Shown here: positions 4,325 through 26,406 of the stretch, piece after piece
How the letters are laid out: every line of letters starts with the position of its first letter
How positions within the stretch are numbered: position 1 is the stretch's first letter
Assembly: GCA_013215295.1 (NCBI GenBank)
Contig: JABSOZ010000011.1
Span: 62,001 to 126,000 of the forward strand
Source: Colwellia sp.
Lineage (GTDB): Bacteria > Pseudomonadota > Gammaproteobacteria > Enterobacterales > Alteromonadaceae
DNA: 64,000 bases
Direction of reading: 5' to 3'
Made by a program: the position numbers and the translations under genes
Notes under the pieces: model-generated
What the model was told of the DNA's origin: nothing
The model's database searches: none
What the model saw: only the letters and a program-made list of their open reading frames with translations

Positions 4325-4687
4325 CTCTGCACAAACACATTTAAAATCTAATGCAAATATTTTTGGCGTTTTGACTTCGTTAGTTAGCTAAACTTCCCCA
4401 TTACCCGTTGACCCCGAACCAATTCCTTAAAGAAATGCAAGATGTTGCGGTGTGTCTTAGCTGAACATAATGAATAAAATAGAGCGTGATAATTCGAGGT
4501 GTAACTTTTTTATTTGCAATCATTTGATAATAAAGGGGTTACCAAAATTATTGAGATGACCAATAAGTCAACTCAACATACCAAGACAATTACTCAAATA
4601 ATTGAAAAATAAACTCATAAAGCCAGCAAATGAGTAATTCCCTTAATCACCCATTAACATCAGTAAATGTCAGTAAACTATTTGCCA
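4325..4687. other. Intergenic, 363 bp, nothing recognised
   Basis: This AT-rich stretch lies between convergent genes. I found no convincing ORF, RNA or hairpin with a T-run. Confidence 0.5.
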
Positions 4688-7534: not shown

Positions 7535-8599
7535 TTACGCATCCTCCATCGCACGTAAAAATATATCTTCTAACGAGTCACGTTTATAATCTAAGCTTCT
7601 GATCTGAACCTGCAATTGTTCGGCGGCCATATAAACGTCTCGTATCTCTATTTGTTGCGCTAATATCACTTTTAACCGTCTGCGATTAGTCAGTGCAACA
7701 TCGCAGCCTAGGCTACGCAAAGCACTAACGAAGCGGTCTCTATCTCCTCGAACGTGCATCAGTAAAAATTTTCGATCACTGCGTCTTTCTTCTTCCAGAT
7801 TGCAATAGATGGCAATTTTACCTTGTTTTAATACCAGTGCTTCGTCACAACACTCCTCCACATCTTTAAGTAAATGCGATGCCATGATAATTTTGGTTTC
7901 TCCGGCATCACGGATCTCTCTGATCAGTTGTAGCATGCGTGTTCGCGCTGGTGGATCTAAACCATTGGTGGGTTCATCTAAAAATAATAATTTTGGCCCA
8001 TGGACGATAGCCTGTGCCAACTTGACTAATTGTTTCATGCCTAAAGAATAGGTATCTATTTTTCGGTATCTCGCTTCACCCAAGCCGACATAAAAGAAAA
8101 CTTCATGCGCGCGCTCTAAGGCGTCACTTGGACTTAACCCTGACAACTCCCCCATTAAACGGACAAAACGAATGCCGGTCATACCGGTAATAAAAGCATC
8201 CCGCTCAGGCATATAACCAACCATATGTCTTACGCTATCGCTTTGGCTACTGACGTCGTAACCAAAAATTGAAGCGCTACCTGAACTTGGGCGATTAAAG
8301 CCAAGCAAAGTATTTAATAACGTGGTTTTACCCGCGCCATTAGGGCCAAGTAATCCAATGCAATTTCCCCTAACATTGGCCGTCAGCTTATCTAAGATGG
8401 GTCGACCAAAATTAACGGATAAATTTTGCAATTCAAAAACCGCGGGCTCTGTAACACTATCTGTGTTGCCACTTGCGCTAGGGTTAAAGGCAACTTTGTC
8501 AGTGTTTGTTTCAGCTACATGTTTATTTTTTTCATGACTAGAAACTTCCGATCCCACTTCGTCTATGTTCTCTGCTTGCTTTAAACGGTCTGATTCCAT
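7535..8599 (-). CDS. ABC transporter ATPase (CcmA/NatA type)
   Basis: A 354-aa ATPase with a 45-residue polar N-terminal extension, Walker [10 protein letters not shown], signature [15 protein letters not shown] and Walker [14 protein letters not shown]. The C-terminal domain after about residue 265 has the extra subdomain seen in ABC-2 exporters. It is the first transporter gene after the FecR protein and is separated from it by 137 bp that contain a possible tiny ORF. It presumably works with the abutting permease at 6668-7534. Confidence 0.9.
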
Positions 8600-8612
8600 T
8601 AAAATTGTCTCT

Positions 8613-8702
8613 TTATTCTAGGGTCTGTTGACCCTTATTAGCTGACTTACTTTTAATTTCTCTTAATATTTTACTAGCCACATCACCATTCAGCCGTATC
8701 AT
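8613..8702 (-). CDS. Possible 29-aa ORF in the FecR-ABC gap
   Basis: ATG at 8702 has AAAGGTGA about 6 nt upstream and opens a 29-aa frame ([13 protein letters not shown]..., basic, ending QQTLE). It ends 13 nt before the ATPase start. Position and ribosome site fit an operon member or a coupling leader peptide. With 29 codons a chance ORF is quite possible, and no family is recognised. Confidence 0.25.
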
Positions 8703-8736
8703 CAATACTCACCTTTGTCGGCGTCGACTTAAGATG

Positions 8737-11472
8737 CTATTCAGCTGCGCCCTCAATTAGCGATTGCAAACTTAACAGCTGTGCGATGCTAAAAGGGAGA
8801 TCGGCACTACCATTTTGTACAAGCCTAAAACCATTTGGCTTCACATTTACACTGTATAGTGATGATACATTTGAGTTTAAATTTTGTACAACTTCTTTTT
8901 GCTCTGCTGATAAATTTGTTGGAATTTTATCAACCAGATCAGCAACTAATTCACCGATACGGCTAAAGACAAGTGCGGAGAAGTCTAACTCGCCATTATT
9001 GGGCAATAACGATTGAAACTCGCTGTCTGTTAATAAACTCGCTGAGGTTTGATAATATTTAATGGCATTTTCAAGTTGCGCCATATTCGCAGCAGCAACC
9101 AAGTAACCATCAACATAAACATAAGACAGCTTTTGAAAGACACTCGAGTTACTTACCCCTTGGCTACTCAATTGGTAGGCGTTGAAGTCGCTAATCTGTG
9201 TTTTTGATATAAGTATGGAAGTCCCTTTGTTCTCAGCAGCCATTTTTTCATTGATGTATTCGATTATCTGTTCGATATTCTGTTGCAGCATATTTTCGTC
9301 ATAAACTTCCAAAACTACTTTCCATGAAGGCACTGGCAATAACGGTCCGTCGAGTCCTAAGGCAAATTCACCGCCTAATGTTGCTAATACTTCTTGCTTC
9401 ACTTGCTGCCATTTTTGGCTATCAAGAATGCTATCATGGCTAGTATTTTGTGTTTCATTTGTGCTTTCATTGGTCGTCGCACTGTTGTCTGTTGAGGATG
9501 CAAAATTTTCAATTATTTGTTTCATTTCTTCAATAATAATTGCGGGGTCTTTAAAGGCCGCCGCCGCTATCATGGTAGTATCAACAGAAAAGAACTCCAT
9601 TGATGCCAAGGGTCCAGGAGCTGCTAACCAAGACATCATGCCTGTGCGCTCACCGTCGAATAACAACTCTGCCACTAGGGAAGTACGATCACCCGTTTGT
9701 CGTCTTTCCGCCGTTAAATATTGCGCTTTGTTTAATCCACTAACGGCTAATCCTTTATTTGAATCCACATTTTCTGAATCACTTACCTCTGTCATTATTT
9801 TAGCTAAATGCACAGCGCCAAGCATCTCAGTACCTTTTGAATAGGCATTGTTTAACAAAGTATGAAGACCACTTCCAACAAAGTCACTTGAACCTTGTGC
9901 CAAAATCGCCTGCATCTCTTTCATGGAGTCAGCACCTACGGTAGCTACCAGTAAGTCACCCATTAACCAAATTGATAACTCACCGGAAACTGCTTGTTCG
10001 GGATCATCAATAAGCGCAATTTTTATCTCATGCTGATTATCGTCGTCTCCAATACTTAAGGTTAACTGCTGCAAGTGTGCTTCTATATCAGCTACGGTAG
10101 TACCCGCATCAACTTCAGATAAGATAACCGGACTAAAGCGAAAATTATTATCTGCATTATTACCTGTACTGTTTAAAGAAATTGTCACCACAGTTTCATC
10201 ACCAAGGAGGTCACCAAAATTAGCCAGACTTGCCATGATGGCATCTAACTGCTTGGTATCGGTCGGTAAATCGTCCCCCATACCCTCTAACGTATTAAAA
10301 TGAGACTTAAACAAGTCATAAACTTCGGCTATTTTTTTAGGCGCATTGGGTACTGCTATGTAAGCAACGGTATTAATGGGTGAAAGATCAAGTAAACGGG
10401 TCGAATAACGTGGGCCCGTATCTATCACTGAATTGAAATCTTTTTTGAAGGCTGACAATGCACTAAGCATATGAATATATTTGTCGGCGTCTCGACTCCA
10501 GGATATTTCATCCGCAATTTTTAGGGCGACGGTATCATAGCGCGAGCTTATTTGGTCGCCGGGTAATAAACTTTCGCTTATGCCTTTTTGCAATACCTGA
10601 ACTTCACCTTCAATAACGGCTACGCGAGAGCCCATGGTGCCATGAGCCACTTCGAAGATAGTTCCTGTAACAGATACCAACACTTCATTGGTTTTAACAA
10701 CTAGCGTTCCTGAGCCTTGAGGTGAAGCTTCAACTAATATTTTCCCCCGCTCTACATCTATGCGATTACCTGAGCCACGTCGAACCACACTCAACTGCGT
10801 ACGTTCATTCACTTCAACTCGTGACCCGTCATCAAGTACCAAAAGCGCACCACCGTTTATGGAAGTACGAATATTTTGGTGTCCATCAATCCAGACGCCT
10901 TCTTTTAATGGCGTTAACTGCCCCTGTTCAACAAGAAACAAATCCCCTTGTATCTCCTCTATCAGTACCAAATCAGATTGATCTAAAGACGGGAGTTTAG
11001 GTAAAATCATGAAAGCTGTAAACGCAATAACAACAAGTGCTGCACTGCGGATAAACCAGTTTGACATTGTTCGCTTTTGTGATTTTGTTTGATCCTGTGA
11101 ATCGCTCTTATCACCTTTGAGGGCCGTTTCTGTCGTATTATTTCTAGCATTCGTTAGTGCACGACGTAATGGAATAGATCTTCTGCTCTCCTCTTCAAAT
11201 AGTAACGTTTGCGCCGGAGAAAGTTGTTTTTGCAAATAATCGGGGATTGCCGCGATATAATCTTCAATTGAATCGAATTTCAACGAATTCGCTGGTGCGT
11301 GTTGCACTACAGTGGTATTCGCTGCATTTGTATTAGCAGCCTTGAGTAACTGCTTAACGCGATCACCAGCTGCGAGCATCTCTGCCTGTGGTGGAATATC
11401 GGCTTTGATGGATGCTACCGCTGCATCGATCAATTCATTGTTTTCATTACTGTTGTTAATGTCATCTTTCAT
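8737..11472 (-). CDS. FecR-domain membrane protein with large duplicated C-terminal region
   Basis: A 911-aa protein, far longer than ordinary FecR anti-sigma factors (about 320 aa). Residues 1-135 are polar and cytoplasmic, a single membrane span lies at about 141-158, and a FecR domain spans about 171-307. The remaining 600 residues are predicted periplasmic and contain two similar modules: GDLLVATVGADSMKEMQAIL (about 503) and DGYLVAAANMAQLENAI (about 786), each followed by a SxxFxxLL-like segment. This pattern recalls the DUF3352 family, though the assignment is tentative. It overlaps the ECF sigma gene by 4 nt, so it is the likely anti-sigma partner and signal receiver. No TonB receptor is adjacent, unlike FecIRA systems. 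Confidence 0.75.
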   Translation of the reverse strand: MKDDINNSNENNELIDAAVASIKADIPPQAEMLAAGDRVKQLLKAANTNAANTTVVQHAPANSLKFDSIEDYIAAIPDYLQKQLSPAQTLLFEEESRRSIPLRRALTNARNNTTETALKGDKSDSQDQTKSQKRTMSNWFIRSAALVVIAFTAFMILPKLPSLDQSDLVLIEEIQGDLFLVEQGQLTPLKEGVWIDGHQNIRTSINGGALLVLDDGSRVEVNERTQLSVVRRGSGNRIDVERGKILVEASPQGSGTLVVKTNEVLVSVTGTIFEVAHGTMGSRVAVIEGEVQVLQKGISESLLPGDQISSRYDTVALKIADEISWSRDADKYIHMLSALSAFKKDFNSVIDTGPRYSTRLLDLSPINTVAYIAVPNAPKKIAEVYDLFKSHFNTLEGMGDDLPTDTKQLDAIMASLANFGDLLGDETVVTISLNSTGNNADNNFRFSPVILSEVDAGTTVADIEAHLQQLTLSIGDDDNQHEIKIALIDDPEQAVSGELSIWLMGDLLVATVGADSMKEMQAILAQGSSDFVGSGLHTLLNNAYSKGTEMLGAVHLAKIMTEVSDSENVDSNKGLAVSGLNKAQYLTAERRQTGDRTSLVAELLFDGERTGMMSWLAAPGPLASMEFFSVDTTMIAAAAFKDPAIIIEEMKQIIENFASSTDNSATTNESTNETQNTSHDSILDSQKWQQVKQEVLATLGGEFALGLDGPLLPVPSWKVVLEVYDENMLQQNIEQIIEYINEKMAAENKGTSILISKTQISDFNAYQLSSQGVSNSSVFQKLSYVYVDGYLVAAANMAQLENAIKYYQTSASLLTDSEFQSLLPNNGELDFSALVFSRIGELVADLVDKIPTNLSAEQKEVVQNLNSNVSSLYSVNVKPNGFRLVQNGSADLPFSIAQLLSLQSLIEGAAE

Positions 11473-12629: not shown

Positions 12630-13952
12630 TTATTTGTTAGGGATTTTTATACATGCCTTCGCGCCTTTTTCATTAACCTTATTTACTAAGGTTAATTGCC
12701 CGCCATGCTGTTCTATAATGTTTCGACACAGCACTAAACCTATCCCTTGGCCATTTGTTTTTGTTGTATAAAAAGGTACAAATAAGTTTTCACTGTTTTG
12801 AATACCACTACCATTATCGCCAATTTCTATCATGGTAAAACCGGCTAGTTGATAACTGTGAAAACTTATGGTTATTTTCTCCCTCTCCTTGCTTTGCAAA
12901 ACACTTGCTTGTTTTGCATTAGAAATAAGGTTTATTAACACCTGTTCAAACAATATTGGATCAGCGGTAATATGCGAAACTTCTAATGTAGTTTTAAACG
13001 CTAGGTCTGGGTGTAGCAAGCACATTTTTGAGAGTGAGATTTGTAGATCTATTTCCTTAAGATTAAGACTATAAATTTGTGTCATCTGACTATATTGTTG
13101 AACAAATTCAGTTAAATTTTGACTGCGTTCAACGATAACTTCAAGGGCTTCTTTTTGATCAGGAACTTGGCTAAATTGAGCCAATGTTTGTGCTAATGAT
13201 TGAATCGGCGTTAAAGTATTTTTAATTTCATGACTTAATACCCTAACAACCTGCTGCCAAGACTGAGATTGCATCTTTCTCAATTCAGAACTGATATCAG
13301 TTAACATTAACAAGTGATGTTGTCCTGAGTGATCTTTAAAGCTGCTGGAACGAATTTTAAAACGTTGGGCTTGTTCTTTTTCATCAAAGCACCATTCGTT
13401 TTCAAATTGTGATAAACCGAAGGATTTAATCGGCATTAGGCGCACTAAACGCCAATCTTTGTTTAGCCAATTTGATAAAGCTTGATTACCGTAAACAAGC
13501 TTATTCTGTTCATTGATTAACAGTACCGGGCTGTCTAATTGCTTTATCAAGCTATGAACTAATATGTCTTTTTCGTCGAATAAGCGTTTTTTTTGTCTTA
13601 GCAGATGGGCAAGACTGCCTACCTCATGAAATAATTGCGCACTAACGCCTTGAGAAAAAACGGGAATGGTTTCAAAAGAGTAATCATCAACTTTAATTGA
13701 CTCTAGTGACGTTAACAAACCAAAATATGGCTGTATTAGCTTGTTTTTTATTTTTTCACTGATAAATGCCAAAAAAGGTAAGATAAAAATAAAGGTTGTC
13801 ACCACCAATAACAGCGACTGACTAATGAACCAAGTACTGAGTAACATTAGAAACAGTAGTATAAAATTAACGCTAAACAATACTCGATTAAGCCATTGTT
13901 CTAAACTTAATGCACTCATCGTTGGTAACTTATTGCTCTGTTCACTTTCCAT
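12630..13952 (-). CDS. NtrY-like sensor histidine kinase
   Basis: A 440-aa kinase with two adjacent membrane segments near the N-terminus (about residues 19-60), a PAS-like region, a dimerisation helix with H-box SHEIKNTLTPIQ (His about 241), and an ATPase domain with N-box NLISNAKQAS, DNGSGI and QGIGLVLCRNI. ATG at 13952 follows the regulator stop by 1 nt (TGAaATG). An upstream GTG at 13985 would overlap the regulator by 32 nt and is the alternative. It is the last gene of the HlyD-ATPase-MacB-regulator-kinase operon and should phosphorylate the NtrC-type regulator next to it. Confidence 0.9.
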   Translation of the reverse strand: MESEQSNKLPTMSALSLEQWLNRVLFSVNFILLFLMLLSTWFISQSLLLVVTTFIFILPFLAFISEKIKNKLIQPYFGLLTSLESIKVDDYSFETIPVFSQGVSAQLFHEVGSLAHLLRQKKRLFDEKDILVHSLIKQLDSPVLLINEQNKLVYGNQALSNWLNKDWRLVRLMPIKSFGLSQFENEWCFDEKEQAQRFKIRSSSFKDHSGQHHLLMLTDISSELRKMQSQSWQQVVRVLSHEIKNTLTPIQSLAQTLAQFSQVPDQKEALEVIVERSQNLTEFVQQYSQMTQIYSLNLKEIDLQISLSKMCLLHPDLAFKTTLEVSHITADPILFEQVLINLISNAKQASVLQSKEREKITISFHSYQLAGFTMIEIGDNGSGIQNSENLFVPFYTTKTNGQGIGLVLCRNIIEQHGGQLTLVNKVNEKGAKACIKIPNK

Positions 13953-13953
13953 T

Positions 13954-15405
13954 TCAGCTGAGTACCTTAAGGTAGTCTTTGGCACTGATTTTATATTTTT
14001 CTAAGCGACGATAAATAGCACTTTTACTTAATCCTAATAGTGCGGCCGCTTCATGGGTTTGCCCATGACATTGACTTAACGCTAGGTCGATTAACAGTCG
14101 TTCAGCAGCTTCAATGGTCATCAACGACAACCCCTGTTCTTTGTTTATAGACTGGATTGTTGACCTTTCATTATTTATATCATCTTGCTGGTAATTATCG
14201 TTTAACATCAGATTTTCTGCTTTGATGGCTACCTCTTTATGCATTAAAACGACACGTTCAAGTATATGGCTCAGTTCGCGCAAGTTACCTGGAAAGTCAT
14301 AACGACATAATCGCTTGATGGCACAAGGTAATAAACTCATCAGTGGTTTGTCATACTGCAGACACAACTTAGTCAGCATAATTTCAGCAAGCTCGGGAAT
14401 ATCTGCAACTCGCTCTCGTAAAGCTGGAATGGTTAATTCTATGGTGTTTAACCTAAAGTAGAGATCTTGTCTAAAAAGTCCTTGATCAAACAAGTCCTTA
14501 AAATTGGCATTCGTTGCACTGATCAAACGAACATTCGCTTTTTGTGTAATGCTCGATCCTACCGGCTCGTATTCTCCTGATTCAAGCACCCTTAATAACT
14601 TTCCCTGTGAAGCGAGGGGAATATTAGCCACTTCATCAAGAAACAAGGTACCAGACTCTGCTAGCTCAAATCGTCCAATACGCGTTTGATGTGCACCGGT
14701 GAATGCGCCTTTAGTGTGACCAAACATTTCGCTTTCAAACAAGTCGCCTGGAATAGCCCCCATATTAACGCTAACTAATCCGGAGCTGTTAGGCTGGTCA
14801 TGTTTTGAGCGTTGATTATATTTATGGTGAATATAATGGACTAGGGTACTTTTACCCGTGCCATTTTCACCGGTTAATAAAATTGTCGCCTTGGTTTGGG
14901 CAACCTCATCAAGTTGGCCTATTAATGTTTTCATCGCAGGAGAATGAGCAACAATCATTAATTGTTCTTCTATCTCAGCTTCATTTGTTTGTTGTAGTTT
15001 CTGATTTTGCTTTTGTAGTTCTTCCACTTTCAAACACTGTTTTATGACTTGTAATAACCTTTGATTGTTCCAAGGTTTTTCAATAAAGTCTTGTGCCCCG
15101 GCTTTAAGTGCCTTAACCACTAAATCAGCACTCGACCATGCAGTAATAGCCACAACAAGTAAATGCTCATTAAAAGCCATTATTTTTCGTAAACAATACA
15201 ACCCCTCTTCACCTGATGTAGTATCAAGTGAAAAATTCATATCTAATAACACGAGATTAACCACTGCAGTTTCAAGTAAAGCTAAGCCGGTAACAGGGCT
15301 GTCTGCTTCAATGACCTCAAAACCAAAATTACTCAAAAAAAAGCGTGCGCTTAATCTGACTTCAGCATTATCGTCAATAATAAGTATTGTTTGTTTCTTT
15401 GTCAT
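13954..15405 (-). CDS. Sigma-54-dependent response regulator (NtrC family)
   Basis: A 483-aa protein: receiver domain with phospho-acceptor Asp55 (LVLLDMNF), AAA+ domain with Walker A GENGTGKS (179-186), an intact sigma-54 contact loop GAFTGA (233-238) and FLDEVANIP, and a C-terminal Fis-type helix-turn-helix (HEAAALLGLSKSAIYRRL). It activates sigma-54 polymerase from a distance. The only matching promoter I found is in front of the operon it belongs to (20127-20142) with two palindromes 50-105 bp upstream, which suggests positive autoregulation together with the transporter. Confidence 0.92.
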   Translation of the reverse strand: MTKKQTILIIDDNAEVRLSARFFLSNFGFEVIEADSPVTGLALLETAVVNLVLLDMNFSLDTTSGEEGLYCLRKIMAFNEHLLVVAITAWSSADLVVKALKAGAQDFIEKPWNNQRLLQVIKQCLKVEELQKQNQKLQQTNEAEIEEQLMIVAHSPAMKTLIGQLDEVAQTKATILLTGENGTGKSTLVHYIHHKYNQRSKHDQPNSSGLVSVNMGAIPGDLFESEMFGHTKGAFTGAHQTRIGRFELAESGTLFLDEVANIPLASQGKLLRVLESGEYEPVGSSITQKANVRLISATNANFKDLFDQGLFRQDLYFRLNTIELTIPALRERVADIPELAEIMLTKLCLQYDKPLMSLLPCAIKRLCRYDFPGNLRELSHILERVVLMHKEVAIKAENLMLNDNYQQDDINNERSTIQSINKEQGLSLMTIEAAERLLIDLALSQCHGQTHEAAALLGLSKSAIYRRLEKYKISAKDYLKVLS

Positions 15406-15499
15406 AATGATTTGATAGCTTAATATTGCTGCTTTTAATTAAAGATATTAGCATAAAGACAGCAATTTATTCAGTAACTTATAACCAACTCAGCTCTTA

Positions 15500-17914
15500 T
15501 TATTCGTCTCTTAATGCTTTCACAGGGTCTTGCTTTACCATGCTTTTAACCGGGATAAAACAAGCAATAAATGAGAAGCCCAGTAATAAAAGTAAAGAAA
15601 GTATGATTTGAATGGCATCAGGTGAGCCTAAGTGTTCTATTTGATTCATGGCGACTTGATAAATTAGCACCGCAAATAAAAGGCTTGCACATAACCCTAG
15701 CATTACCGGTTTCAACGCATCTTTAAGCACTAAATTAATAATACGTTTACGTTTAGCGCCTAAGGCCATACGTACGCCTAATTCATAACGCCTCATTTGT
15801 GTTGAGTAACTGATCACGCCATATATACCAGTACAAGCAAGGATGAGGGCAAAAAGGCTTAAACCCGCGGCTAACCATGCCGTTAAACGGTATTGATAAA
15901 ACATCGCTTGTGCGGCTTGTGCTAATGGCAAATAATCTTGAATACGCAAACTTTTATCAACGATGCGTAATTGTTCAAGCAAGGCTATTTTAGACATCGG
16001 CATATTAGGTTTTATTTTTAAATTTAGCGTCAATCGCCACCATGGCCTAGCTGGCAAATATAATTGTGGTCGGCTTTCTTCTGAGAGGTTGCCAATATAG
16101 TTCTCGGTAACGCCGATGATTAAATTAGCCTTACCATTGCTATTATAAATATACTGCCCAGCTACATCGACCTTATTAAATATCTTTAATGCACTGGCCT
16201 TACTTAAGATGATTACATTTTTTTGCTCAGTTATTTCTTCCAAGCTAAAGTTTCGCCCCGATAAAAGTGAAAGTTGCAGTGTATCTATGTAGCTTTCATC
16301 AATAGTATTAAACCTAAAACTGCCTAAACGTTTATTATTTTTATCATAGTAGGCCATGCCCCAAGGCCATTTTAAAATAGGAGCAGAAGTAGTAATTGCA
16401 ACACTATCAACTTGAGGCAATTGGCTGAAATGCTGTTTAAGTTGACGTGCCAAAGTCGTCAGTTGTTGCGTACCTTGATAATTTTTACCGGCATCAATCC
16501 AGACACTGGTCACATTATCAACGTTTATACCTAAAGGCTTGTTAACGGTTTCCAAATTAGTTTGTAAAACCATAGAAGTGACTAACAACAAAAGTCCGGT
16601 AAGGGAGACTTGTGAGGCAATGAGCATTTTCCTTATTTTAGGAGAGACTTGCGCATTGGTACCTTTACCACTGGCAGATAATTGCTCTTTTAAAGCATCA
16701 TATGACACAGCAAATTTACCAAAAAATGCTAATAATGCAGCTAATACAACAGAAATAATCAAACTAAATATTATTGTCGTGCTATCTAAACTCAGTTCAT
16801 TAAGTCGGGGTAAAGCCTCTCCTGCAATTTCTCGCGTTAATACTAATAACCATGCAGCAATAACAAGCGCAAATATAGCGGCACTTATGGTTAAAAGTAA
16901 ACTCTCAACAAAAAGTTTTTTAAATATGGCTTTGGGTTTAGCTCCTATGCAAGCGCAAATAGCGAGCAGCTGTTGTTTTTTACTAATATGAGATAAATAT
17001 AAGTTAACCACATTGGCAAAAGCGATCAATAAAAGCACTAAAGATGCCGCAAAAATGACTAAGGTAATTTGAGCACTATCACCCTGTATTGACTCACTTA
17101 ATTTCGTTAAATGTGCTTTTAATTCTGTATCTTCGTAATTTGTTGTATCTACACCTTCTTGTGTGAAATCCTTCAAGATCATTGAAAGTTGTTCAGCAAC
17201 GCCAGCTAGACTCTGACCATCAGATAAACGAACCAAACTCAATAGACTAGAAGTTCCTCGACCAATACTTTCATTAAGACCACTATACTTAAAAGGTAAA
17301 TAAACTTGACTTGCGTAAGAGGTAAAAGTATCAGGCTCTTTAAAACCTTGTGCAATAACACCAACGATTTTATATTGTTCATCGTTTACTTGCATACTTT
17401 GACCAATAACTTGTTTGCTGCCAGCAAAGTCAGTTTGCCAAAGCTGATAACTTATGACAGCTTCAGCTTTTGCCTCACTCAATGGCGCTTTATCATCGCT
17501 TTGGGAAAAAGCACCACCCAACTCAAAAGGTATACTTAACAAAGAAAATAATTCATTACTTAAAAAAAGCGTTGATATTACTGGTTCACTAGGGCTACTT
17601 ACCAGTATACCGCTACCACTATTAATGATTGCAGAACTAATAAACTCTTTGCTTAATCTATGCATCCTTATTTGAGCGCCGATAATTTGACTACCAATAT
17701 TATCTTTGCCATCCCTGAATTTGTTTTGCTCTAAAATGTATAACTGCTCAGCATTGGCATAAGGAAGTTCTTTAAATAAAATCAGTTGATTTAAATTAAA
17801 TGCAGCAAATAAAGCCCCTAAAGTGATGGCTAAAGTAAACACTAAAGTGAAGACAAAAATAGGGGTTTTCTTCAAACCTGCAATACTGTGGATAATTTCA
17901 TGTTTAAGCTTCAT
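15500..17914 (-). CDS. MacB-like ABC transporter permease (MacB_PCD / FtsX)
   Basis: An 804-aa permease with a membrane segment at about 20-40, a large periplasmic domain, and three-helix FtsX blocks, followed by a second periplasmic domain and a C-terminal FtsX block with GIYGVISYSTQMRRYELGVRMALGA. This duplicated 2 x (periplasmic + FtsX) layout with about 8 helices is the ADOP/MacB-related type. The ATPase is separate (gene upstream, 1-nt TAATG overlap). With the HlyD-like adaptor it should form a mechanotransmission-type efflux pump working with an outer-membrane channel encoded elsewhere. Confidence 0.88.
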   Translation of the reverse strand: MKLKHEIIHSIAGLKKTPIFVFTLVFTLAITLGALFAAFNLNQLILFKELPYANAEQLYILEQNKFRDGKDNIGSQIIGAQIRMHRLSKEFISSAIINSGSGILVSSPSEPVISTLFLSNELFSLLSIPFELGGAFSQSDDKAPLSEAKAEAVISYQLWQTDFAGSKQVIGQSMQVNDEQYKIVGVIAQGFKEPDTFTSYASQVYLPFKYSGLNESIGRGTSSLLSLVRLSDGQSLAGVAEQLSMILKDFTQEGVDTTNYEDTELKAHLTKLSESIQGDSAQITLVIFAASLVLLLIAFANVVNLYLSHISKKQQLLAICACIGAKPKAIFKKLFVESLLLTISAAIFALVIAAWLLVLTREIAGEALPRLNELSLDSTTIIFSLIISVVLAALLAFFGKFAVSYDALKEQLSASGKGTNAQVSPKIRKMLIASQVSLTGLLLLVTSMVLQTNLETVNKPLGINVDNVTSVWIDAGKNYQGTQQLTTLARQLKQHFSQLPQVDSVAITTSAPILKWPWGMAYYDKNNKRLGSFRFNTIDESYIDTLQLSLLSGRNFSLEEITEQKNVIILSKASALKIFNKVDVAGQYIYNSNGKANLIIGVTENYIGNLSEESRPQLYLPARPWWRLTLNLKIKPNMPMSKIALLEQLRIVDKSLRIQDYLPLAQAAQAMFYQYRLTAWLAAGLSLFALILACTGIYGVISYSTQMRRYELGVRMALGAKRKRIINLVLKDALKPVMLGLCASLLFAVLIYQVAMNQIEHLGSPDAIQIILSLLLLLGFSFIACFIPVKSMVKQDPVKALRDE

Positions 17915-18693
17915 TAGCTCGCCTCCCCAACCATCATCACAGGTTCTGTGATCATTTCACCATCAAGTAAGTGCATTTGAGTGTCGGCAATTTCAGCGTA
18001 CCGCGTATCATGGGTCACCATACAAATGGTCGTACCGGCTTTGTTTAAACTCTTCAATAAAGCCATAACTGCATCACCATTTTTTGAATCTAGGTTCCCG
18101 GTAGGTTCATCAACCAATAAAATAGCGGGCTTGCCGACAAGTGCACGGGCAATAGCAATACGCTGCTGTTGTCCGCCAGAAAGTTGGTTAGGGTTATGCT
18201 CTGCTCGGTGCCCCATATTAACTTGGGCTAGCGCGCTATGTACGGCTTCCTTAATTTCGGTTTCCGTTAACTCTTTAGCCCCGTTGTCGACTTCTCGATA
18301 CCTTAAAACTAAAGCAATGTTTTCGAAAACACTCAGCTCATCAATCAAGTTAAATGACTGAAATATAAAACCAATACTTTTATTGCGTATTTCTGCTCGC
18401 ATATCAACGCCTAATTGACTGACATCTTTTCCAACAATATGATAACTGCCTGTACTCGGGCTATCTAATAAGCCCATAATGGCGAGCAATGAGGATTTTC
18501 CACAGCCTGAAGGACCTGAAATAGAGACGAAATCACCTTTATAAATAGTTAAATCGACACTTCTTAACGCATGAGTTTCCATGTTATGGGTGCGAAAAAC
18601 TTTGCCAATATTACTTAATTGCAAACAAATCTCTTTTTTATTTGCTGATTGATTGATTACGTTTTGAGTTGTATTTTTCAATTCTGTCATCAT
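17914..18693 (-). CDS. MacB/LolD-type ABC ATPase
   Basis: A 259-aa ATPase with Walker A GPSGCGKSS, signature [15 protein letters not shown] and Walker [14 protein letters not shown], all typical of the LolD/MacB branch. It ends by overlapping the permease start by 1 nt and starts 111 bp after the adaptor gene. It energises the permease at 15500-17914. Confidence 0.92.
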   Translation of the reverse strand: MMTELKNTTQNVINQSANKKEICLQLSNIGKVFRTHNMETHALRSVDLTIYKGDFVSISGPSGCGKSSLLAIMGLLDSPSTGSYHIVGKDVSQLGVDMRAEIRNKSIGFIFQSFNLIDELSVFENIALVLRYREVDNGAKELTETEIKEAVHSALAQVNMGHRAEHNPNQLSGGQQQRIAIARALVGKPAILLVDEPTGNLDSKNGDAVMALLKSLNKAGTTICMVTHDTRYAEIADTQMHLLDGEMITEPVMMVGEAS

Positions 18694-18804
18694 ATTTACC
18701 TGTTTTTTGCTGATAATGCTAACATTTGCATTTAAAATTATTTAATTAATAAGACTTTAAAGTTTCTAAGTTCAAGTGACTTATTTGAAAGTGTTTACTT
18801 AAAA

Positions 18805-20055
18805 TTATCGAATAATTTGAATATTTGCTTGTTCATAAAATTTATTCATATCGTTTAAAATAAATTGCTCGCCGTACTTTGCACCTGACTTTATCTCGAT
18901 GTATTGACCATTCTTCACGCCGAATTCTAACCAGGTAACTTGCGCGCTACTTTCTTCGGCATCAACTTTAAATATTTTTAAACGAGAGTTTGCTGAGCTA
19001 TTCACAGGAGACTTGATATACAATGCGTTTTCTAATCGGCCTAAGTTAACTTTTGCTTCAACCTTTAAGGATGGACGGGCATTTTTAGGTAATGGGCCAA
19101 TTAATTCAATTTCTACTTCAACGTTACCGTCTCTTACCACCGGATCAATACGGGTAACTTTGCCCTGTGCAACCCCACCTCTGGTATCAATGCTTACTGA
19201 CATTTCAGGTAACATTGCTTGTACATCTCGCTGGGGAATTTGCACTATTGCTAATAAATCGTTTGTTCCACCGACTAATGCTAATTGATGACCGATACTT
19301 ACGCTTTGCCCTAGTTCAATCGGCAACGCTTGTAATACGCCATCAATGCCAGCCCTGACTAATAACCTTTGGAAATTATTTTCAGCGATTGTTAATAAGC
19401 TCGATTTTTCAGCAATGTATTCTGCTTGAATTTGCAATCCTTGCTGATGAATATCAAGCAATTGCTTTAAGCGTTTTTTAGAATTATCTAAACGACCTGC
19501 TAGCTTATTAACCTCTGCTTGTGTGGTCATTAAGTTAAGTTGTGTCACTATGCCCTGTTTAGCCAGCTTTGTTTCAGCAGCAAGCTTAGAACGAAAAACA
19601 CCTAAATCTAGCTTTAGTTCTGCAATGCCATTGCTGGCTGACAAATTCTCTCGGGCTTGAGTTAACTTAAGTTGTTTTAATCGTCCATTTTCTGCATTAA
19701 GTGCCAACTGGGCTAAAATAACCGCCTGATCAATCTCTGGATTAGACATTTTTAAAATAATACTTGTAGGTGTTACCTTCGCGCCGGGTCTAAGGATAAT
19801 TTCTTCTATTACAGCCGAATATGGAGCAGTAAGAAATCGTTGCACTTTAGACTCTAGTTGACCAAAACCTGTCACCGTTAACTCCAATGAGCCTTGCTGC
19901 ACCTGTTCAATCCACAGTTGCTGAGATTCAACTTTGCTTTGTGCTACCGGTAAACTGAAAACCCAATAAATCAACATAAGTGCCAGTAGTCCTATCAATA
20001 AGGTTAGAGACCTCTTTTTAGATGATTTACTTTCTACTTCAACGTTAATATCCAA
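18805..20055 (-). CDS. HlyD/MacA-like periplasmic adaptor
   Basis: A 416-aa membrane-fusion protein: N-terminal membrane anchor (about residues 17-36), split lipoyl/barrel-sandwich regions (LTAPYSAVIEEIILRPG and LVRAGIDGVLQALPIELGQ), a coiled-coil hairpin between them (about 110-230), and a beta-barrel domain. The start is TTG at 20055, preceded by AAGAAGGG (about 20062-20069). It heads the operon with the ATPase, MacB-like permease and two-component pair, and lies 72 bp after the sigma-54-type promoter. Confidence 0.88.
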   Translation of the reverse strand: MDINVEVESKSSKKRSLTLLIGLLALMLIYWVFSLPVAQSKVESQQLWIEQVQQGSLELTVTGFGQLESKVQRFLTAPYSAVIEEIILRPGAKVTPTSIILKMSNPEIDQAVILAQLALNAENGRLKQLKLTQARENLSASNGIAELKLDLGVFRSKLAAETKLAKQGIVTQLNLMTTQAEVNKLAGRLDNSKKRLKQLLDIHQQGLQIQAEYIAEKSSLLTIAENNFQRLLVRAGIDGVLQALPIELGQSVSIGHQLALVGGTNDLLAIVQIPQRDVQAMLPEMSVSIDTRGGVAQGKVTRIDPVVRDGNVEVEIELIGPLPKNARPSLKVEAKVNLGRLENALYIKSPVNSSANSRLKIFKVDAEESSAQVTWLEFGVKNGQYIEIKSGAKYGEQFILNDMNKFYEQANIQIIR

Positions 20056-20465: not shown

Positions 20466-20605
20466 AAATTTGAGAATCACATACCATCCTGGGTACCATT
20501 TTTCAGAGTAACACTTGATAAGAAAAGGTTTTAGCAATCCGCTTGACTATTTATTAGATAATCAAGCGGTTACTAAAATTAGTGAGCTGACACTATAAGT
20601 CAGCT
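20466..20605 (-). repeat. Dispersed repeat copy 2, matching the rnpB 3' end
   Basis: It has the same design as copy 1: hairpin AGCTGAC/GTCAGCT followed (minus strand) by hairpin CCGCTTGA/TCAAGCGG. The rnpB 3'-end core occurs at 20581-20599. Further along, CCATTTTTCAG (about 20497-20507) is also found beyond the rnpB terminator (about 26888-26898), so similarity to the rnpB flank is not limited to the core. Confidence 0.8.
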
Positions 20606-20825
20606 CAAACAAGTAATTTAACACACTGTTTTTAATGGCAATATTGACTTATATCGATTCAAACAGCTCTCATCCATAATGTCTTAAACTTTCCATAGAA
20701 TACATCCAAAATAGTTTTCTTTTTAGGTATTCTAAAAGCTAAATATAATATATTAACTTTAATACATTCAACGTTAACCTTGAGCCTTTTTTTAATATGT
20801 GGACTTGCATCAGATAGCTTTCGGG

Positions 20826-21230
20826 TCATGTGCGAACATCTAAAAAATTAAGTTTCTTTTCAATCACAACCTTGTTAAAACCTTGATAAAACATATCATC
20901 GATAATTATTACTGGTAGCGCTTTATTTTTCAGGTTATCAAATGTTTTTCTAGCATGTTCATCTTTCTCGATATCATAATCAAGATACTCAACATTATTA
21001 CTATTAAAGTAATGTTTTAACTCAATACAAGCTTCACACCAACCGACTGTATATATTACTATTGGAGATTCATCAGTGACTCCGAATACACTATAATTCC
21101 CTAATACGCCTTCACTTAATTCTATTGAATTATAGTCTTCTCTTTCTATTGGTTGTTCTCCCCAATACAAATGATTGGCAATAATTACCAAGAGTAGGAA
21201 TCCTCCATAAAACGATATATTCTTCAACAT
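20826..21230 (-). CDS. Membrane-anchored glutaredoxin/thioredoxin-like protein
   Basis: A 134-aa protein with one N-terminal hydrophobic segment (about residues 5-20) and then a periplasmic thioredoxin-fold domain. The redox motif is CEAC in VGWCEACIELKHYF, followed by the cis-Pro segment LPVIIIDD and a GFN turn as in glutaredoxin/NrdH-type proteins. It is the last gene of the peptide-export operon, 21 bp after the CPPC protein. A role in forming, shuffling or reducing disulfides of the 4-Cys peptide encoded at the operon head is an attractive inference. Confidence 0.7.
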   Translation of the reverse strand: MLKNISFYGGFLLLVIIANHLYWGEQPIEREDYNSIELSEGVLGNYSVFGVTDESPIVIYTVGWCEACIELKHYFNSNNVEYLDYDIEKDEHARKTFDNLKNKALPVIIIDDMFYQGFNKVVIEKKLNFLDVRT

Positions 21231-21251
21231 TATCTGATTTCCTTTTCACAC

Positions 21252-21677
21252 CTAATTTACAATTGTTATTTTATGAAATTCAACTTTTTGATCTTTGAAC
21301 TTTTTCTTTAGTATATTGATAATTCTCTCTTGTTTTTCACAAGGTGGACATGGACCAATTTCTGGGCTAATCGTAATAAAAAATAATGTAAAGTTGCTAT
21401 CATCAAACGTTGGTTCGAAGTCGATTAATCCAAACAAATCTTGCGTTATTTGAGCACTCCGCTTATGGACAGGCTTTTTTCTAAATTCATTCCTTAATCC
21501 CTGATCTAAAGAGTCACTTTGAAATGTCAATTCTCCTTGTTTATTAAACAAAAAGAGTTGCGGACCCTTTTTAGGAATATTGCTTTCAGTTTGCACCGAA
21601 TATTCGAAATCTTTTGCCAATATAGACACGCTGTTAAAAGAAATAGCAATGTATAAAAGTATTATTAATTTTTTCAT
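21252..21677 (-). CDS. Secreted small protein with CPPC motif (partial thioredoxin-like fold)
   Basis: A 141-aa protein with a Sec signal peptide (about residues 1-21). The C-terminal 45 residues read as strand (FTLFFITIS), CPPC (in GPCPPCEKQ), helix (ERIINILKKKF) and strand (VEFHKITIVN). This is the first half of a thioredoxin fold, and the protein stops there. The preceding 75 residues are not recognised. It sits 21 bp from both neighbours in the peptide-export operon. It may be a dedicated thiol/disulfide factor for the peptide, or a peptide-binding protein using its CPPC pair. Confidence 0.6.
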   Translation of the reverse strand: MKKLIILLYIAISFNSVSILAKDFEYSVQTESNIPKKGPQLFLFNKQGELTFQSDSLDQGLRNEFRKKPVHKRSAQITQDLFGLIDFEPTFDDSNFTLFFITISPEIGPCPPCEKQERIINILKKKFKDQKVEFHKITIVN

Positions 21678-21698
21678 GTTTATCCTTAAATTTAAGTA

Positions 21699-24074
21699 TT
21701 AAGAAAGCGAGAGCCAAGCAAATCTTAACTTTTGTTTGATGTGATAACCTAATGATATTGCAACTAATAAAAGTATACAGATACCTATTAAAGTTATTGC
21801 TGTTATGTTAAATAATGAAGTGCCCACCAATAATTTTTGTAATAAATCACTTTTAAGCGTAAATAAAGTCACCACCCCCATAATTATTGGAATAAATACA
21901 ATAATGAAAAACAAATATTCTCGCCCAATGAGAGAACCAAGCTTTGCGCCTTCACAATAACGAAGTGCTAACTCCCTTGCGTTTTTATCGGTCAATTGTT
22001 TTATCGTACTAAAACAAAATACTATTGCGGCTATGAACATGAGAACCGTTGCAGTTAATGTCACTTTTAGAATAGCTAACCTAGGCTGATGCTCTTTTTC
22101 TATTAACTCAGACAAGGAAACGATATGAATCCCATTAAAACTAACATCTAACGTTTTGATTATTTTAGCGACTATTTTTGTCAATTTTATTGCAGAAATC
22201 TGTGACTCTATCACTAAGCCCTCAAAGCCTGTCAACGCGAATACAGGGCTATAAATAGTCGGTTCTATCTGAGTATCAGGGCCTGAAATGTAAATATTTT
22301 CAATAACACCTACAACACGATAGGCTGTTTTTTCACCATTCATGGTATTTACGTTCAGAAGTTGCGCATCAGCTAAGGTTTGATCGGTAAAATACCTATC
22401 CCATAAGGCCTGGTTTACCACAATGTTCATTGGTTTTAAGCTATCAACACTGTTGCCCAATAATATTTTTGTGCCTAATGTAGTGAAATAATCAGCCGAT
22501 ATGGTGTCTTCGGTGGTATTGCCGTGTGCTCCAGTACCTATAGATTCACCTGTTGTACTAAACCACTGGCTGTAACTGGTTTTTTCCGATAATGGTGGCA
22601 TAGATGTAATAGCTGCTTGTTTTATTTCTGGATTTGACACTAATTGCTGTAATAATAACTGTGCTGTATTATTTGCTTGTAATATTTCTGATCTGATTTC
22701 AGGGAAATCAAAAGTAACCACAAAACGATTTTCATCGACAAAGCCTAAGTGGGTTTTAAAGATGGACCGTTGGTTTTCTAACAATAATAAACTGCTATAC
22801 AATGCAATAGTCGTTAAGGATAGTAACAATGCAAGTAAGGTGTAGCTTTGCACTTTTTGACTAAAACTAGCACTTTGTCCTCGACCAAAAGTTGTTTTAA
22901 TTAACTTTTCTTGAATCAAAAATACGATACTCATGAAAAAGAGTACACAGAAAAATAAATAAGAGATAATATTTAATAATTGACTGAAGTTTGTTCTCAC
23001 TTCTTCCATACTCACTTGAGGCAAAAATAGTTGAACAAAATAATGACCAAGTGGCAAACAAAATATACAAAAAACAATAACTAACATTACGGTTAAAAAC
23101 ATATCCAAAAAACGTTGAACGAGTAGATTTACTTTACTCGCCCCACAAAATGCTCTTATTTTGTACTCTTGCTGCTTAGCAGCACATTCACCGCTATAAA
23201 AGTTGTTAAAAGCAATAAAACAAAATAACAGCAACAACCAAAATAATGTTTTGAGTAGGTATATTCTTTTACTGACCGTCAAATATTTTTGATTATTAAC
23301 CCCTATCGCACGATTAATCAAAATATCACTTTCTTCTAACAGTAATGCCTCGTTTTGTAGGTAGAGAGTAATATCTTGAGTCAAAGAGTCGAACACCTGA
23401 TTATTCCCTATTAAATAGCTATAAGTATCAGGCGTAATCGAGTAATCAACATCATCTAATAACTCTGGTAACTGCTTGTATGGCATAACAAAACTAGTTG
23501 TTTGGTGTTCTCTAAAGGAAATGAAATTTTCTGGCATAATAGCGACTATCGTCACTGTTTTATTGTTAATTTGTATTTTTTTACCAATAACATTTTTAGT
23601 TGTTTTTAAATGTTTTTTCCATTCAATATAACTAATCGCAGCAACAAGTTCTTGGCCTAGCTTTGGAAACTCCATTGACTCTAAAGAGCCCTGTAACGGT
23701 TTAATGTCTAGACTTTTAAAACCACCGGAAATAAAACTAATCAGTTTACTCTCTTTACTACTTTCGTTTCTTACTTCAAAAGATATACTTCGCTCATACA
23801 CTGATTTAACAGGCCATTTATTCTCTATTTCTTGCGAAATGTAATAAGGCAAAGGCTGAGACTTACCCTCTTCGACTAAAACTGAATTACGGATGGGACT
23901 GTCTTTTGATAATCCTGCAAAATTGGCATCAAGATACGATGTTTCGATTAATTGAAAATTAATTAAGATACTAATAGGAAAAGCTAGAAAGAGAATCACT
24001 AATAAAAACGACAGATTATTAGTCATTTGTTTTAGCCAGTTTACTATTAAATCAACACACAATTTATAGGTCAT
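21699..24074 (-). CDS. MacB-like ABC permease of the peptide-export operon
   Basis: A 791-aa permease with an N-terminal membrane helix, a MacB-type periplasmic core, an FtsX three-helix block, a second periplasmic core and a C-terminal FtsX block with ARELALRYCEGAKLGSLI. The organisation resembles the permease at 15500-17914, but sequence identity looks low. TTG at 24089 would add 5 residues (MVWRY); neither start has a good Shine-Dalgarno, and I prefer ATG at 24074. It pairs with the ATPase 42 bp upstream. Confidence 0.85.
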   Translation of the reverse strand: MTYKLCVDLIVNWLKQMTNNLSFLLVILFLAFPISILINFQLIETSYLDANFAGLSKDSPIRNSVLVEEGKSQPLPYYISQEIENKWPVKSVYERSISFEVRNESSKESKLISFISGGFKSLDIKPLQGSLESMEFPKLGQELVAAISYIEWKKHLKTTKNVIGKKIQINNKTVTIVAIMPENFISFREHQTTSFVMPYKQLPELLDDVDYSITPDTYSYLIGNNQVFDSLTQDITLYLQNEALLLEESDILINRAIGVNNQKYLTVSKRIYLLKTLFWLLLLFCFIAFNNFYSGECAAKQQEYKIRAFCGASKVNLLVQRFLDMFLTVMLVIVFCIFCLPLGHYFVQLFLPQVSMEEVRTNFSQLLNIISYLFFCVLFFMSIVFLIQEKLIKTTFGRGQSASFSQKVQSYTLLALLLSLTTIALYSSLLLLENQRSIFKTHLGFVDENRFVVTFDFPEIRSEILQANNTAQLLLQQLVSNPEIKQAAITSMPPLSEKTSYSQWFSTTGESIGTGAHGNTTEDTISADYFTTLGTKILLGNSVDSLKPMNIVVNQALWDRYFTDQTLADAQLLNVNTMNGEKTAYRVVGVIENIYISGPDTQIEPTIYSPVFALTGFEGLVIESQISAIKLTKIVAKIIKTLDVSFNGIHIVSLSELIEKEHQPRLAILKVTLTATVLMFIAAIVFCFSTIKQLTDKNARELALRYCEGAKLGSLIGREYLFFIIVFIPIIMGVVTLFTLKSDLLQKLLVGTSLFNITAITLIGICILLLVAISLGYHIKQKLRFAWLSLS

Positions 24075-24116
24075 ATAGCGCCAAACCAATTAATCGTTTT
24101 TTATTAATCGATAAAA

Positions 24117-24842
24117 TCAAACGCTACCCTGCCCTACAGTTTTGTGATTTCCCTCAGTATAAAGTTTGCCATCAAGTATTTGCCAAATACTTTTGGCTTT
24201 TTGAGCATAAGCATCGTCATGCGTGATAAGGCAAATAGTTTTACCTTGAATATTCAGACGCTCCAATAGATCAAAAACTTGCAAACTGTTTTTAGAGTCT
24301 AAGTTACCTGTTGGTTCATCAGCCAAAATAAGGGAAGGTTCATTAACTAATGCGCGCGCAATAGCGACTCTTTGTTGCTGTCCCCCTGAAAGTTGATCAG
24401 GAGATCTATCAATAAAGTCACCCATGTCAACTTGATGAAGTGCCTTTAAGACTTTATTTCGATATTGTGCACGTTTAACTTGCGGATTATATGTGAGGGG
24501 TAAGGCAACATTATCAAAGACACTTAATTGCGTTAATAAATTAAAGTTTTGAAAAATGAACCCTATCTCATGATTCTTAATTAATGATATCGACGATTGA
24601 GTTAAACGGGTTGTATTAGTCCCTAAGATAGAATAATTACCCTGGGTAGGTTGGTTAAGCAGCCCTAAAATCGAGAGTAATGTACTTTTCCCACTCCCTG
24701 ATGTACCTACAATCGCAATGTAGTCACCTTGATTAATGGTCAAGTTTATGTTCTGTAAAACGTCAATTTTAGTTTTTGGATAGTGAAAATTTAATGAAGT
24801 CATTTCAATTAATGAAGGAGAGCTTTTTATTATATCACTCAT
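24117..24842 (-). CDS. MacB/LolD-type ABC ATPase of the peptide-export operon
   Basis: A 241-aa ATPase with Walker [10 protein letters not shown], signature [15 protein letters not shown] and Walker [14 protein letters not shown]. It directly abuts the HlyD-like gene upstream (24843). Together with the adaptor and permease it makes a complete inner-membrane MacAB-type machine. Confidence 0.92.
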
Positions 24843-26090
24843 TTAACTTTCCTCAGAAATTTCATATTCCATATCCTCACTCAAATGCTTTGGTAAAATG
24901 AATAATATGTCACCTTGTGAAACTTGTTCGCCTAAAAATAAGTACTGAGATGAACGCCCAACGAATTCTATATTAGTCTTTACTGCTTTACCGCCACGTT
25001 CTTTTTTATATATAACCCAATGCTCATAATCGTTGTAATTATTGGGAGCATTGATAAGTAAACGTGTTTTTTGTTGAGCTGTATTGATGACGGCTTCTAT
25101 TGATTGATCGGTTTTTATCCATTGTGGTGGTGTGCCAATAAAAGCTATATAAATACTTACAGCCCCCTGACGGATAACCTTATCAATATGTTCAATTGTT
25201 CCACTTATTTCTCCATTAGGTGTAATAATGGTCGCCGATTGTTCTACTTGAATATGTGTTGTGGAATATTGAGGTATCTGAACTTTTGCAATCAATTTCG
25301 TTGTATCAACTAATTCAAATAGTAATTCCCCCTGATTCACCGCTTGACCTACGTTGCAGAGTACTTCGCTGATAATGCCGGTTACATTGGCCTGAATAGT
25401 TAATGCAGCAATACGGTCTTGTAGGAATTTCAATTGGTCGGTCGTTGTTGCTACTTTGGCGTCTAAGGCATCACGTTGTAATTGATAAATGTTGTTAAAT
25501 AATATTATTTGTTGTTTCCAAAACTCGACATCAACCTTAACCTGTTCATAAGACATCTCGCTTTGTTTAAACTTTATTTTCGATAAGATCCCTTTTTTTG
25601 CCATCAAGCCATTGGCTTCAAACTCTAATTGTTCTTTTCTTACTGATGTTTTTGCTTTAGCTAAATTTGATTCAAGTTGATACCTTTTCATCAACAACTC
25701 ATTTTTCTCTAGCTCTACTTCTGAGCGAATATTGATTAAATTATATTTAGCGGTATCTACTTCTTGTGCTAATGAGTAGTTGGTGATGATTGCGATCACA
25801 TCTCCTTTTTGTATCGTTTGGCCTGCACGGACAAATAATTGACTAATTTGACCGTTATCTGTCGCAGCAAGTAAATTTTTAGTCCGGGGAATAATCGTAC
25901 CAAGGCCACTTACCTTTGCCGTTTCACTAAGTGAATTAACAGCATAAGATTGATTAAATTCTTCGGGAAAATTTGCAACTTTTAATTGAACAACCCACCA
26001 CAGAAAAATGAGGATAAATAATATGGCTGAAAGTAGCCCTGATTTTTGTTTATTTGTTAAAGGTTTTTTTTCTTGAATATAATGTTGCAC
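24843..26090 (-). CDS. HlyD/MacA-like periplasmic adaptor of the peptide-export operon
   Basis: A 415-aa adaptor with an N-terminal membrane anchor (about residues 18-37), a first half-lipoyl region (LAATDNGQISQLFVRAGQTIQKGDVIAII), a coiled coil (about 110-220), a second half (QANVTGIISEVLCNVGQAVNQGELLF), and a barrel domain. Its start is GTG at 26090 with AGGA about 9 nt upstream. It lies 63 bp behind the small 4-Cys peptide gene with no terminator between, so the two are probably cotranscribed. Confidence 0.88.
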   Translation of the reverse strand: MQHYIQEKKPLTNKQKSGLLSAILFILIFLWWVVQLKVANFPEEFNQSYAVNSLSETAKVSGLGTIIPRTKNLLAATDNGQISQLFVRAGQTIQKGDVIAIITNYSLAQEVDTAKYNLINIRSEVELEKNELLMKRYQLESNLAKAKTSVRKEQLEFEANGLMAKKGILSKIKFKQSEMSYEQVKVDVEFWKQQIILFNNIYQLQRDALDAKVATTTDQLKFLQDRIAALTIQANVTGIISEVLCNVGQAVNQGELLFELVDTTKLIAKVQIPQYSTTHIQVEQSATIITPNGEISGTIEHIDKVIRQGAVSIYIAFIGTPPQWIKTDQSIEAVINTAQQKTRLLINAPNNYNDYEHWVIYKKERGGKAVKTNIEFVGRSSQYLFLGEQVSQGDILFILPKHLSEDMEYEISEES

Positions 26091-26153
26091 TTATGATGTC
26101 CTAGAACTTCTGCTTTATTTTATTGCTTGTGGAGTTTTGAGTTGTTAAATGTT

Positions 26154-26321
26154 TTATGGATCAGGGTATTCACTACAAAGTGTAACAACATTACAACCAC
26201 CTGGAACACAGTATGTTGTTGACTTACAGACTTTTTTAGCTGCATAAGCAGCCGTGGTACCGAATGCTAAAATAGCACATATTAATAATTTGGTAAATAT
26301 TGATTTATTCTTATTATTCAT
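26154..26321 (-). CDS. Secreted 4-cysteine small peptide precursor
   Basis: A 55-aa ORF with Shine-Dalgarno AAGGA before ATG at 26321. Residues 1-27 are a Sec signal peptide: basic n-region (NNKNKSIFTK), hydrophobic core (LLICAILAFGTTAA) and AYA cleavage site. The predicted mature peptide is 28 residues, AKKVCKSTTYC... ending CSEYPDP, with cysteines at 32, 38, 43 and 49 (C-x5-C-x4-C-x5-C) and a central PGG. It heads an operon of adaptor, ATPase, MacB-like permease and two CxxC proteins. By analogy with E. coli STII, a 4-Cys Sec peptide reported to leave through MacAB-TolC, I infer a disulfide-bonded exported peptide (bacteriocin, toxin or signal). No family is recognised. Confidence 0.72.
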   Translation of the reverse strand: MNNKNKSIFTKLLICAILAFGTTAAYAAKKVCKSTTYCVPGGCNVVTLCSEYPDP

Positions 26322-26377
26322 AAATATATCCTTTTATTTTTGTTTGAAATTCATGAGTCCCTCACAAGTGCCGAAGA

Positions 26378-26406
26378 AAAATAACAACAACAAAACTCAA
26401 AGTCAA
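26378..26406 (-). promoter_or_regulatory. Sigma-70-type promoter of the 4-Cys peptide operon
   Basis: The minus strand has TTGACT, a 17-bp spacer, then TATTTT with an extended -10 TG upstream. The expected start at about 26371 gives a 50-nt leader. TTAACATAA-type direct repeats just upstream (about 26415-26460) may be regulator sites. Confidence 0.5.

Follow-up and report, generated by a model that had tools for sequence, protein, structure and literature searches.

What would a short secreted peptide with four cysteines be doing at the head of an operon that also encodes a MacB-type exporter and two thiol-redox proteins? This question is raised by a six-gene operon in a stretch of 64,000 nucleotides from a Colwellia sp. 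genome (contig JABSOZ010000011.1, positions 62,001 to 126,000 of the forward strand), the whole of which is called the window. The genes run from the peptide to an adaptor, an ATPase, a permease, a secreted CPPC protein (hereafter CxPC protein) and a CEAC protein. An initial annotation had proposed a self-contained system to make, fold and export a disulfide-bonded peptide. With belief and doubt evenly balanced, we propose that the operon makes a secreted bacteriocin-like peptide, and that the pump and the CxPC protein both export it and protect against it, outliving it. A costly antibacterial peptide with such lasting protection would fit the sequences better than a plain operon for making, folding and exporting, and we prefer it because the peptide has been lost repeatedly while the pump and the CxPC protein stay under purifying selection. 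The argument is built on sequence comparison, which establishes the gene order, the conservation and cysteine geometry of the peptide, its decay and, in the pairs tested, purifying selection on the pump and CxPC genes.

Twelve distinct close loci (the window, L030, L051-L058, L063 and L064) carry the adaptor, ATPase, permease and CxPC genes in the same order. Eleven of their adaptors form one clade with a local support of 0.977, in a tree that omits L064 as nearly identical to L058. An adaptor search in 394 genomes of the order gave 18 with a match, among which G219 stands out (28%, E 8e-55); its locus repeats the order of the window, with a four-cysteine frame, adaptor, ATPase, permease and CxPC protein. 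A permease profile matched ten of 395 genomes of the family, including the window's own, spread patchily over seven of 52 genera. None of the five genus-mates of the window matched at E 1e-60 with at most two candidates scored per genome, settings under which misses are possible. A wider permease profile returned only two of the 394 order genomes, both already known. A named scan added the two Pseudoalteromonas loci L063 and L064 and named other carriers, namely Rheinheimera sp. YQF-1, Pseudoalteromonas sp. T1lg75 and two metagenome-assembled genomes (MAGs) of Alteromonadaceae. The L064 permease (8998-11372) equals that of L058 except for a one-base length difference that splits the frame. In the related MAGs of L052 (1658-2380) and L053 (2658-3464), an apparently secreted protein ending in C-x2-C-P-P is encoded upstream of the peptide.

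The window's precursor (MNNKNKSIFTKLLICAILAFGTTAAYA / AKKVCKSTTYCVPGGCNVVTLCSEYPDP, cleavage set by eye) is the 55-residue frame already recorded in the initial annotation, and a cut after AYA leaves the 28-residue mature part described there, with four cysteines spaced C-x5-C-x4-C-x5-C. For this mature part the calculated average mass is 2963.4 when reduced and 2959.4 with two disulfides. A four-cysteine frame lies just upstream of the adaptor in nine of the 12 close loci, and only the four cysteines and one alanine are invariant over eight aligned rows. A supporting check had been named beforehand: frames preceding homologous adaptors should keep the cysteine spacing while other residues vary. 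Its outcome is positive. A strict pattern (arms 5/5 or 7/7, turn 4-5), searched in six frames of 32 sources, had ten matches in 967,118 translated residues, located at seven close loci and three more distant operons. When the symmetry was dropped, 95 four-cysteine matches were obtained, 12 at peptide loci and 83 elsewhere; equal odd arms with a turn of 4-5 occurred in 10/12 of the former versus 0/83 of the latter. Whole-genome searches of ten carriers with a peptide profile gave a strong match in eight, always at the exporter locus and with E 4.2e-15 or better; the genomes of L056 and L057 had chance-level matches only. A four-cysteine peptide is commoner at these loci than expected by chance.

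The spacing also bears on the fold. An odd number of residues between two cysteines places both on one face of a strand, and equal arms with a short turn make Cys1-Cys4 and Cys2-Cys3 bonds possible across two strands. AlphaFold2 (input of 30 residues and four sequences, of which one comes from a broken gene) placed strands at 4-14 and 17-27 around Pro15-Gly16, with a pLDDT of 92 for the central block, a mean of 78 and a pTM of 0.28. The strand limits, from which the register was read rather than from coordinates, imply residue pairs summing to 31, and the cysteine pairs 7+24 and 13+18 both fit. The prediction for the mature peptide is thus a beta-hairpin in a register compatible with Cys1-Cys4 and Cys2-Cys3, the disulfide pattern we infer.

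The peptide gene has often decayed. An ATG at least 30 codons before the first cysteine is present in the window, L051, L052, L053 and the more distant L130; L030, L054, L055, L058 and L064, and the more distant L117 and L118, have no start codon more than 12 codons before it. The close loci comprise four with an intact peptide, six with a broken one and two in which none was found. Over all 20 exporter loci the counts are seven intact, nine broken and four not seen, with L121 and L133 scored as intact after separate inspection of their two-cysteine peptides. The lesions differ: the ATG lies in the wrong frame next to a C8 run in L030, next to an A9 run in L118 and, with no such run named, in L054; L055 has a 10-bp tandem repeat, L058 an in-frame stop, and L064 and L117 have lost the start. 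L056 retains a decayed frame with one cysteine left, and no trace of a peptide frame was seen at the loci L057 and L063. Around the gene start, L058 and L064 share 97% identity over 959 bases; their lesions are nevertheless different. A second, decayed peptide copy, with two of four cysteines lost, lies upstream of the intact one in L052 (2749-2892).

The machinery shows a different pattern of maintenance. Nei-Gojobori dN/dS values for adaptor, ATPase, permease and CxPC protein, calculated for three pairs, were 0.140, 0.112, 0.106 and 0.119 in L052/L053 (peptide intact), 0.088, 0.047, 0.093 and 0.161 in L054/L055 (both broken; glutaredoxin-like gene 0.115, dS 1.0-1.6 and near saturation), and 0.132, 0.062, 0.136 and 0.105 in L057/L063 (no peptide found). 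The exporter machinery is maintained without an adjacent peptide, L057/L063 being the telling pair. A dedicated folding enzyme should vanish with its only client, and the CxPC protein stayed, which favours a protective role; the pump and the CxPC protein may protect in the manner of an orphan immunity gene.

Because the CxPC gene is present at all 12 close exporter loci, including eight with the peptide broken or not found, its product probably does more than fold the peptide. Across the ten carrier genomes, the CxPC profile has no match at E 1e-5 or better outside the exporter locus. The CPPC protein of the window matched no Pfam or NCBIfam family; from profiles and a middling model, it looks like a circularly permuted thioredoxin. 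Both cysteines and P39 are invariant in 16 sequences and P112 is conserved in 15, with helix 113-126 following strand 96-103 and P39 preceding strand 40-45. Two hallmarks of thioredoxin, a strand followed by a helix that begins with CxxC and a conserved proline that opens another strand, are found here with the halves in reversed order. With the halves exchanged, the best PDB profile match reached E 1.2e-5 over both halves, versus 3.5e-4 over one half in the natural order, and hhalign gave 97.1% over 72 columns. The glutaredoxin-like gene is optional, being present at four of the 12 close loci (window, L051, L054 and L055). The earlier proposal is partly supported: conservation of the peptide and the STII/MacAB-TolC precedent for MacB-type export (excerpt of PMC5985334) speak for it, but the built-in folding enzymes are not supported in the form proposed, given the retention of the CxPC gene at those eight loci and the sporadic glutaredoxin-like gene. 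The recurrent breakage of the peptide gene and the hairpin geometry lay outside the view of that proposal. Tandem CxPC copies occur in L055 (three, 3035-4544) and L051 (two, 8565-9546), and a second, frame-broken copy in L054 (8921-9362).

The CxPC profile also detected weaker relatives in other genomes, eight of which have adaptor, ATPase and permease genes as neighbours in arrangements other than that of the close loci (L117-L121, L130, L132 and L133). All eight adaptors match HlyD_3, and seven of the eight permeases match MacB_PCD or FtsX, some near the cut-off; that of L132 matches neither. Four-cysteine frames with arms 7/7 are found in L117, L118 and L130, secreted peptides with two cysteines in the mature part in L121 and L133, and a truncated three-cysteine remnant in L119. 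No peptide was seen in L132 or in L120, whose exporter is nearly identical to that of L119. This recurrence may reflect one old system or repeated assembly. L131 encodes a CxxC relative (CTAC, 6634-7230) with no exporter nearby and, just downstream, a small secreted two-cysteine peptide (C-x8-C).

In the mechanism we propose, the precursor would cross the inner membrane by Sec and its mature part would fold in the periplasm into a two-stranded hairpin closed by the disulfides Cys1-Cys4 and Cys2-Cys3. From there the three exporter subunits (adaptor, ATPase and MacB-type permease), joined by a TolC-type channel encoded at another place in the genome, would expel it across the outer membrane. A TolC homologue above the TIGR01844 cut-off is encoded outside the operon and is a candidate partner of the pump. 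The CxPC protein would capture, reshuffle or reduce the disulfides of the peptide. The same pump and CxPC protein would protect producers and related non-producers, and for that reason would remain under selection after loss of the peptide. Export by this pump and antibacterial activity, like protection, are what we infer from these patterns.

Several observations weigh against this proposal. The operon holds no separate immunity gene, the L064 permease is frame-broken, and the net charges of ten computed peptides (+2 to -4, with +1 for the window) differ from those of most cationic beta-hairpin antimicrobials. In the tree, the wider-kin adaptors fail to cluster with those of the close loci to the exclusion of unrelated control adaptors (support 0.152), so these operons may or may not all share one origin. 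The argument from purifying selection leans mainly on L057/L063, the breaks in L054/L055 may be recent, and repeated loss is also what one would see if the peptide were a dispensable accessory or the pump served another substrate. Such a pump might give general protection of the envelope against periplasmic thiol or peptide stress, with the peptide as an easily lost sensor, decoy or regulator. Retention of pump and CxPC protein without the peptide agrees with this, as does the resistance to antimicrobial peptides conferred by MacB relatives (excerpt of PMC5985334). We nevertheless consider it unlikely, as the cysteine frame is conserved across exporters only 28-31% identical and similar frames recur in distant operons with other gene orders, which points to a long shared history of peptide and pump.

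Some of the breaks coincide with homopolymers or repeats, and assembly errors or phase switching could account for these. If all broken frames were of this kind, the peptide would be made everywhere, and the runs in L030 (C8) and L118 (A9) and the 10-bp repeat in L055 are what such a view would expect. We hold it improbable: the stop in L058 and the missing start in L064, a near-identical pair, differ by substitutions, L119 is truncated, and little or nothing is left of the frame in L056, L057 and L063. A small secreted peptide with a dedicated exporter and variable residues between its cysteines could also be a pheromone, with the CxPC and glutaredoxin-like proteins setting its disulfides. 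This is quite unlikely, since the operon has no receptor or regulator and a maintained exporter beside a broken or missing signal gene is hard to explain. The invariance of four cysteines in eight aligned rows, next to a CxPC gene, might instead point to a small periplasmic carrier that binds metal, haem or a redox cofactor and is served by the pump. We give this very little credence, because equal odd arms around a turn of 4-5 fit a disulfide ladder in ten of 12 four-cysteine peptides, two-cysteine relatives exist and the operon contains no other metal-system gene.

The layout of the operon agrees with the initial annotation in the positions of all six genes (Table 1) and in the lack of a terminator: all six are read from the minus strand, spaced 0-63 bases apart, and no terminator-like site was found on that strand from the peptide to the last gene. 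The claim that the peptide has its own promoter is weakly supported, by one 9-of-12 match at 26406-26378 upstream of it; promoter-like sites in the scanned region were fewer than in shuffled sequence (24 vs a mean of 30.8). The G+C content of the operon is 33.5%, versus 37.3% for the window, and is lower in five of 117 sliding 5.5-kb windows. Pfam matches above the cut-offs were PF13437 (HlyD_3) for the adaptor, PF12704 (MacB_PCD) for the permease and PF00005 for the ATPase; the CEAC protein matched PF00462 (glutaredoxin). The permease is ADOP-like, yet under the ADOP cut-off, and the peptide matched no NCBIfam or Pfam family at E 0.1.

Table 1. Features of the peptide operon, with positions in the window.
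Feature	Position	Strand	Remarks
Secreted peptide precursor, 55 aa	26154..26321	-	Sec-type signal ending AYA (by eye); mature part C-x5-C-x4-C-x5-C; hairpin predicted
Periplasmic adaptor, MacA/HlyD type	24843..26090	-	GTG start; HlyD_3
ABC ATPase, MacB/LolD/DarD type	24117..24842	-	
MacB-type permease, about 790 aa	21699..24089	-	Without fused ATPase
CPPC (CxPC) protein, secreted	21252..21677	-	Circularly permuted thioredoxin suggested by sequence
Glutaredoxin-like protein, WCEAC, membrane-anchored (anchor by eye)	20826..21230	-	Optional member
Terminator-like stem, 9-pair, beyond last gene	20583..20607	-	

Folding of 13 intergenic stretches, without shuffle control, gave stable hairpins between the peptide and the next gene in L051, L058, L064, L117, L118 (with a T run), L119 and L130, and none after the peptide in the window; such hairpins resemble operons making more peptide than pump. 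Directly downstream on the minus strand (12630-20055), the window contains a second MacAB-type set of adaptor, ATPase and permease, behind which come genes for a response regulator of sigma-54 type and a histidine kinase. Relatives of this set occur in L031-L033 and L040, where the strict four-cysteine pattern is absent.

The components are individually of known kinds. With a HlyD-type adaptor, a MacB-fold periplasmic core domain and an ABC ATPase, the exporter is of the MacA/MacB tripartite type. The pump and Dsb enzymes that serve STII are general parts of the cell. Here, the pump and CxPC protein are encoded with the peptide and the permease has no fused ATPase. An excerpt of PMC5985334 describes MacB-type pumps as thought to take their substrates in the periplasm, and STII as exported by Sec, given two disulfides by Dsb and released by MacAB-TolC; the likeness to our small two-disulfide peptide, whose export is predicted, is one of description and not of sequence. 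Darobactin DarBCD likewise has a separate adaptor, ATPase and MacB-type permease, and among NCBIfam families the operon ATPase matches DarD best, which is equally true of the second, unrelated ATPase close by. The three subunits scored far below the curated cut-offs of the DarBCD models NF038007, NF038008 and NF038010 (58.9/450, 218.5/375 and 37.4/700). Thiol-disulfide enzyme genes also lie within bacteriocin operons for sublancin (BdbA/BdbB) and pediocin (PedC), as far as excerpted accounts describe them. Those clusters are Gram-positive, with a cytoplasmic leader and PCAT-type export, in contrast to the Sec route and apparently permuted thioredoxin found here. The lactococcin 972 system is Gram-positive too, with another peptide and neither adaptor nor thiol proteins. 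Its gene order is of the same kind, and an ABC transporter with a part in immunity may be encoded by the two genes that follow its peptide (excerpt of PMC4055356). Assignment to that system was rejected, as the operon ATPase scored 208.9 bits under the TIGR03608 cut-off of 254.85. In tachyplesin/polyphemusin-type peptides the arms have three residues. These peptides of marine invertebrates have two antiparallel strands, four cysteines, two disulfides and a mass of about 2.5 kDa (excerpt of PMC10608444), the shape predicted for our hairpin, with no homology claimed. They are animal and cationic, whereas the bacterial peptides are near neutral or acidic with arms of 5 or 7.

Our literature search found no paper on the peptide family, its geometry, the permuted thioredoxin or the decay pattern. 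A broader idea, which we raise tentatively and with more doubt than belief, is a new class of gram-negative antibacterials: Sec-secreted, disulfide-laddered beta-hairpins with a permuted thioredoxin that engages their disulfides and passes the peptide to a dedicated MacB-type pump, the peptide being repeatedly switched off or decayed to leave immune non-producers in several genera. If the bacteriocin-like explanation is true, a group of mostly marine gammaproteobacteria would possess a peptide family not described before: short, genetically encoded disulfide hairpins accompanied by their own exporter and protection gene. A simple pattern would suffice to recognise them in DNA; its ten matches came with no background in the 967,118 residues searched. 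The system would also offer MacB-type pumps a natural cognate peptide for study, present a permuted thioredoxin from nature whose partner can be tested, and be a clear case of a weapon lost and its protection kept.

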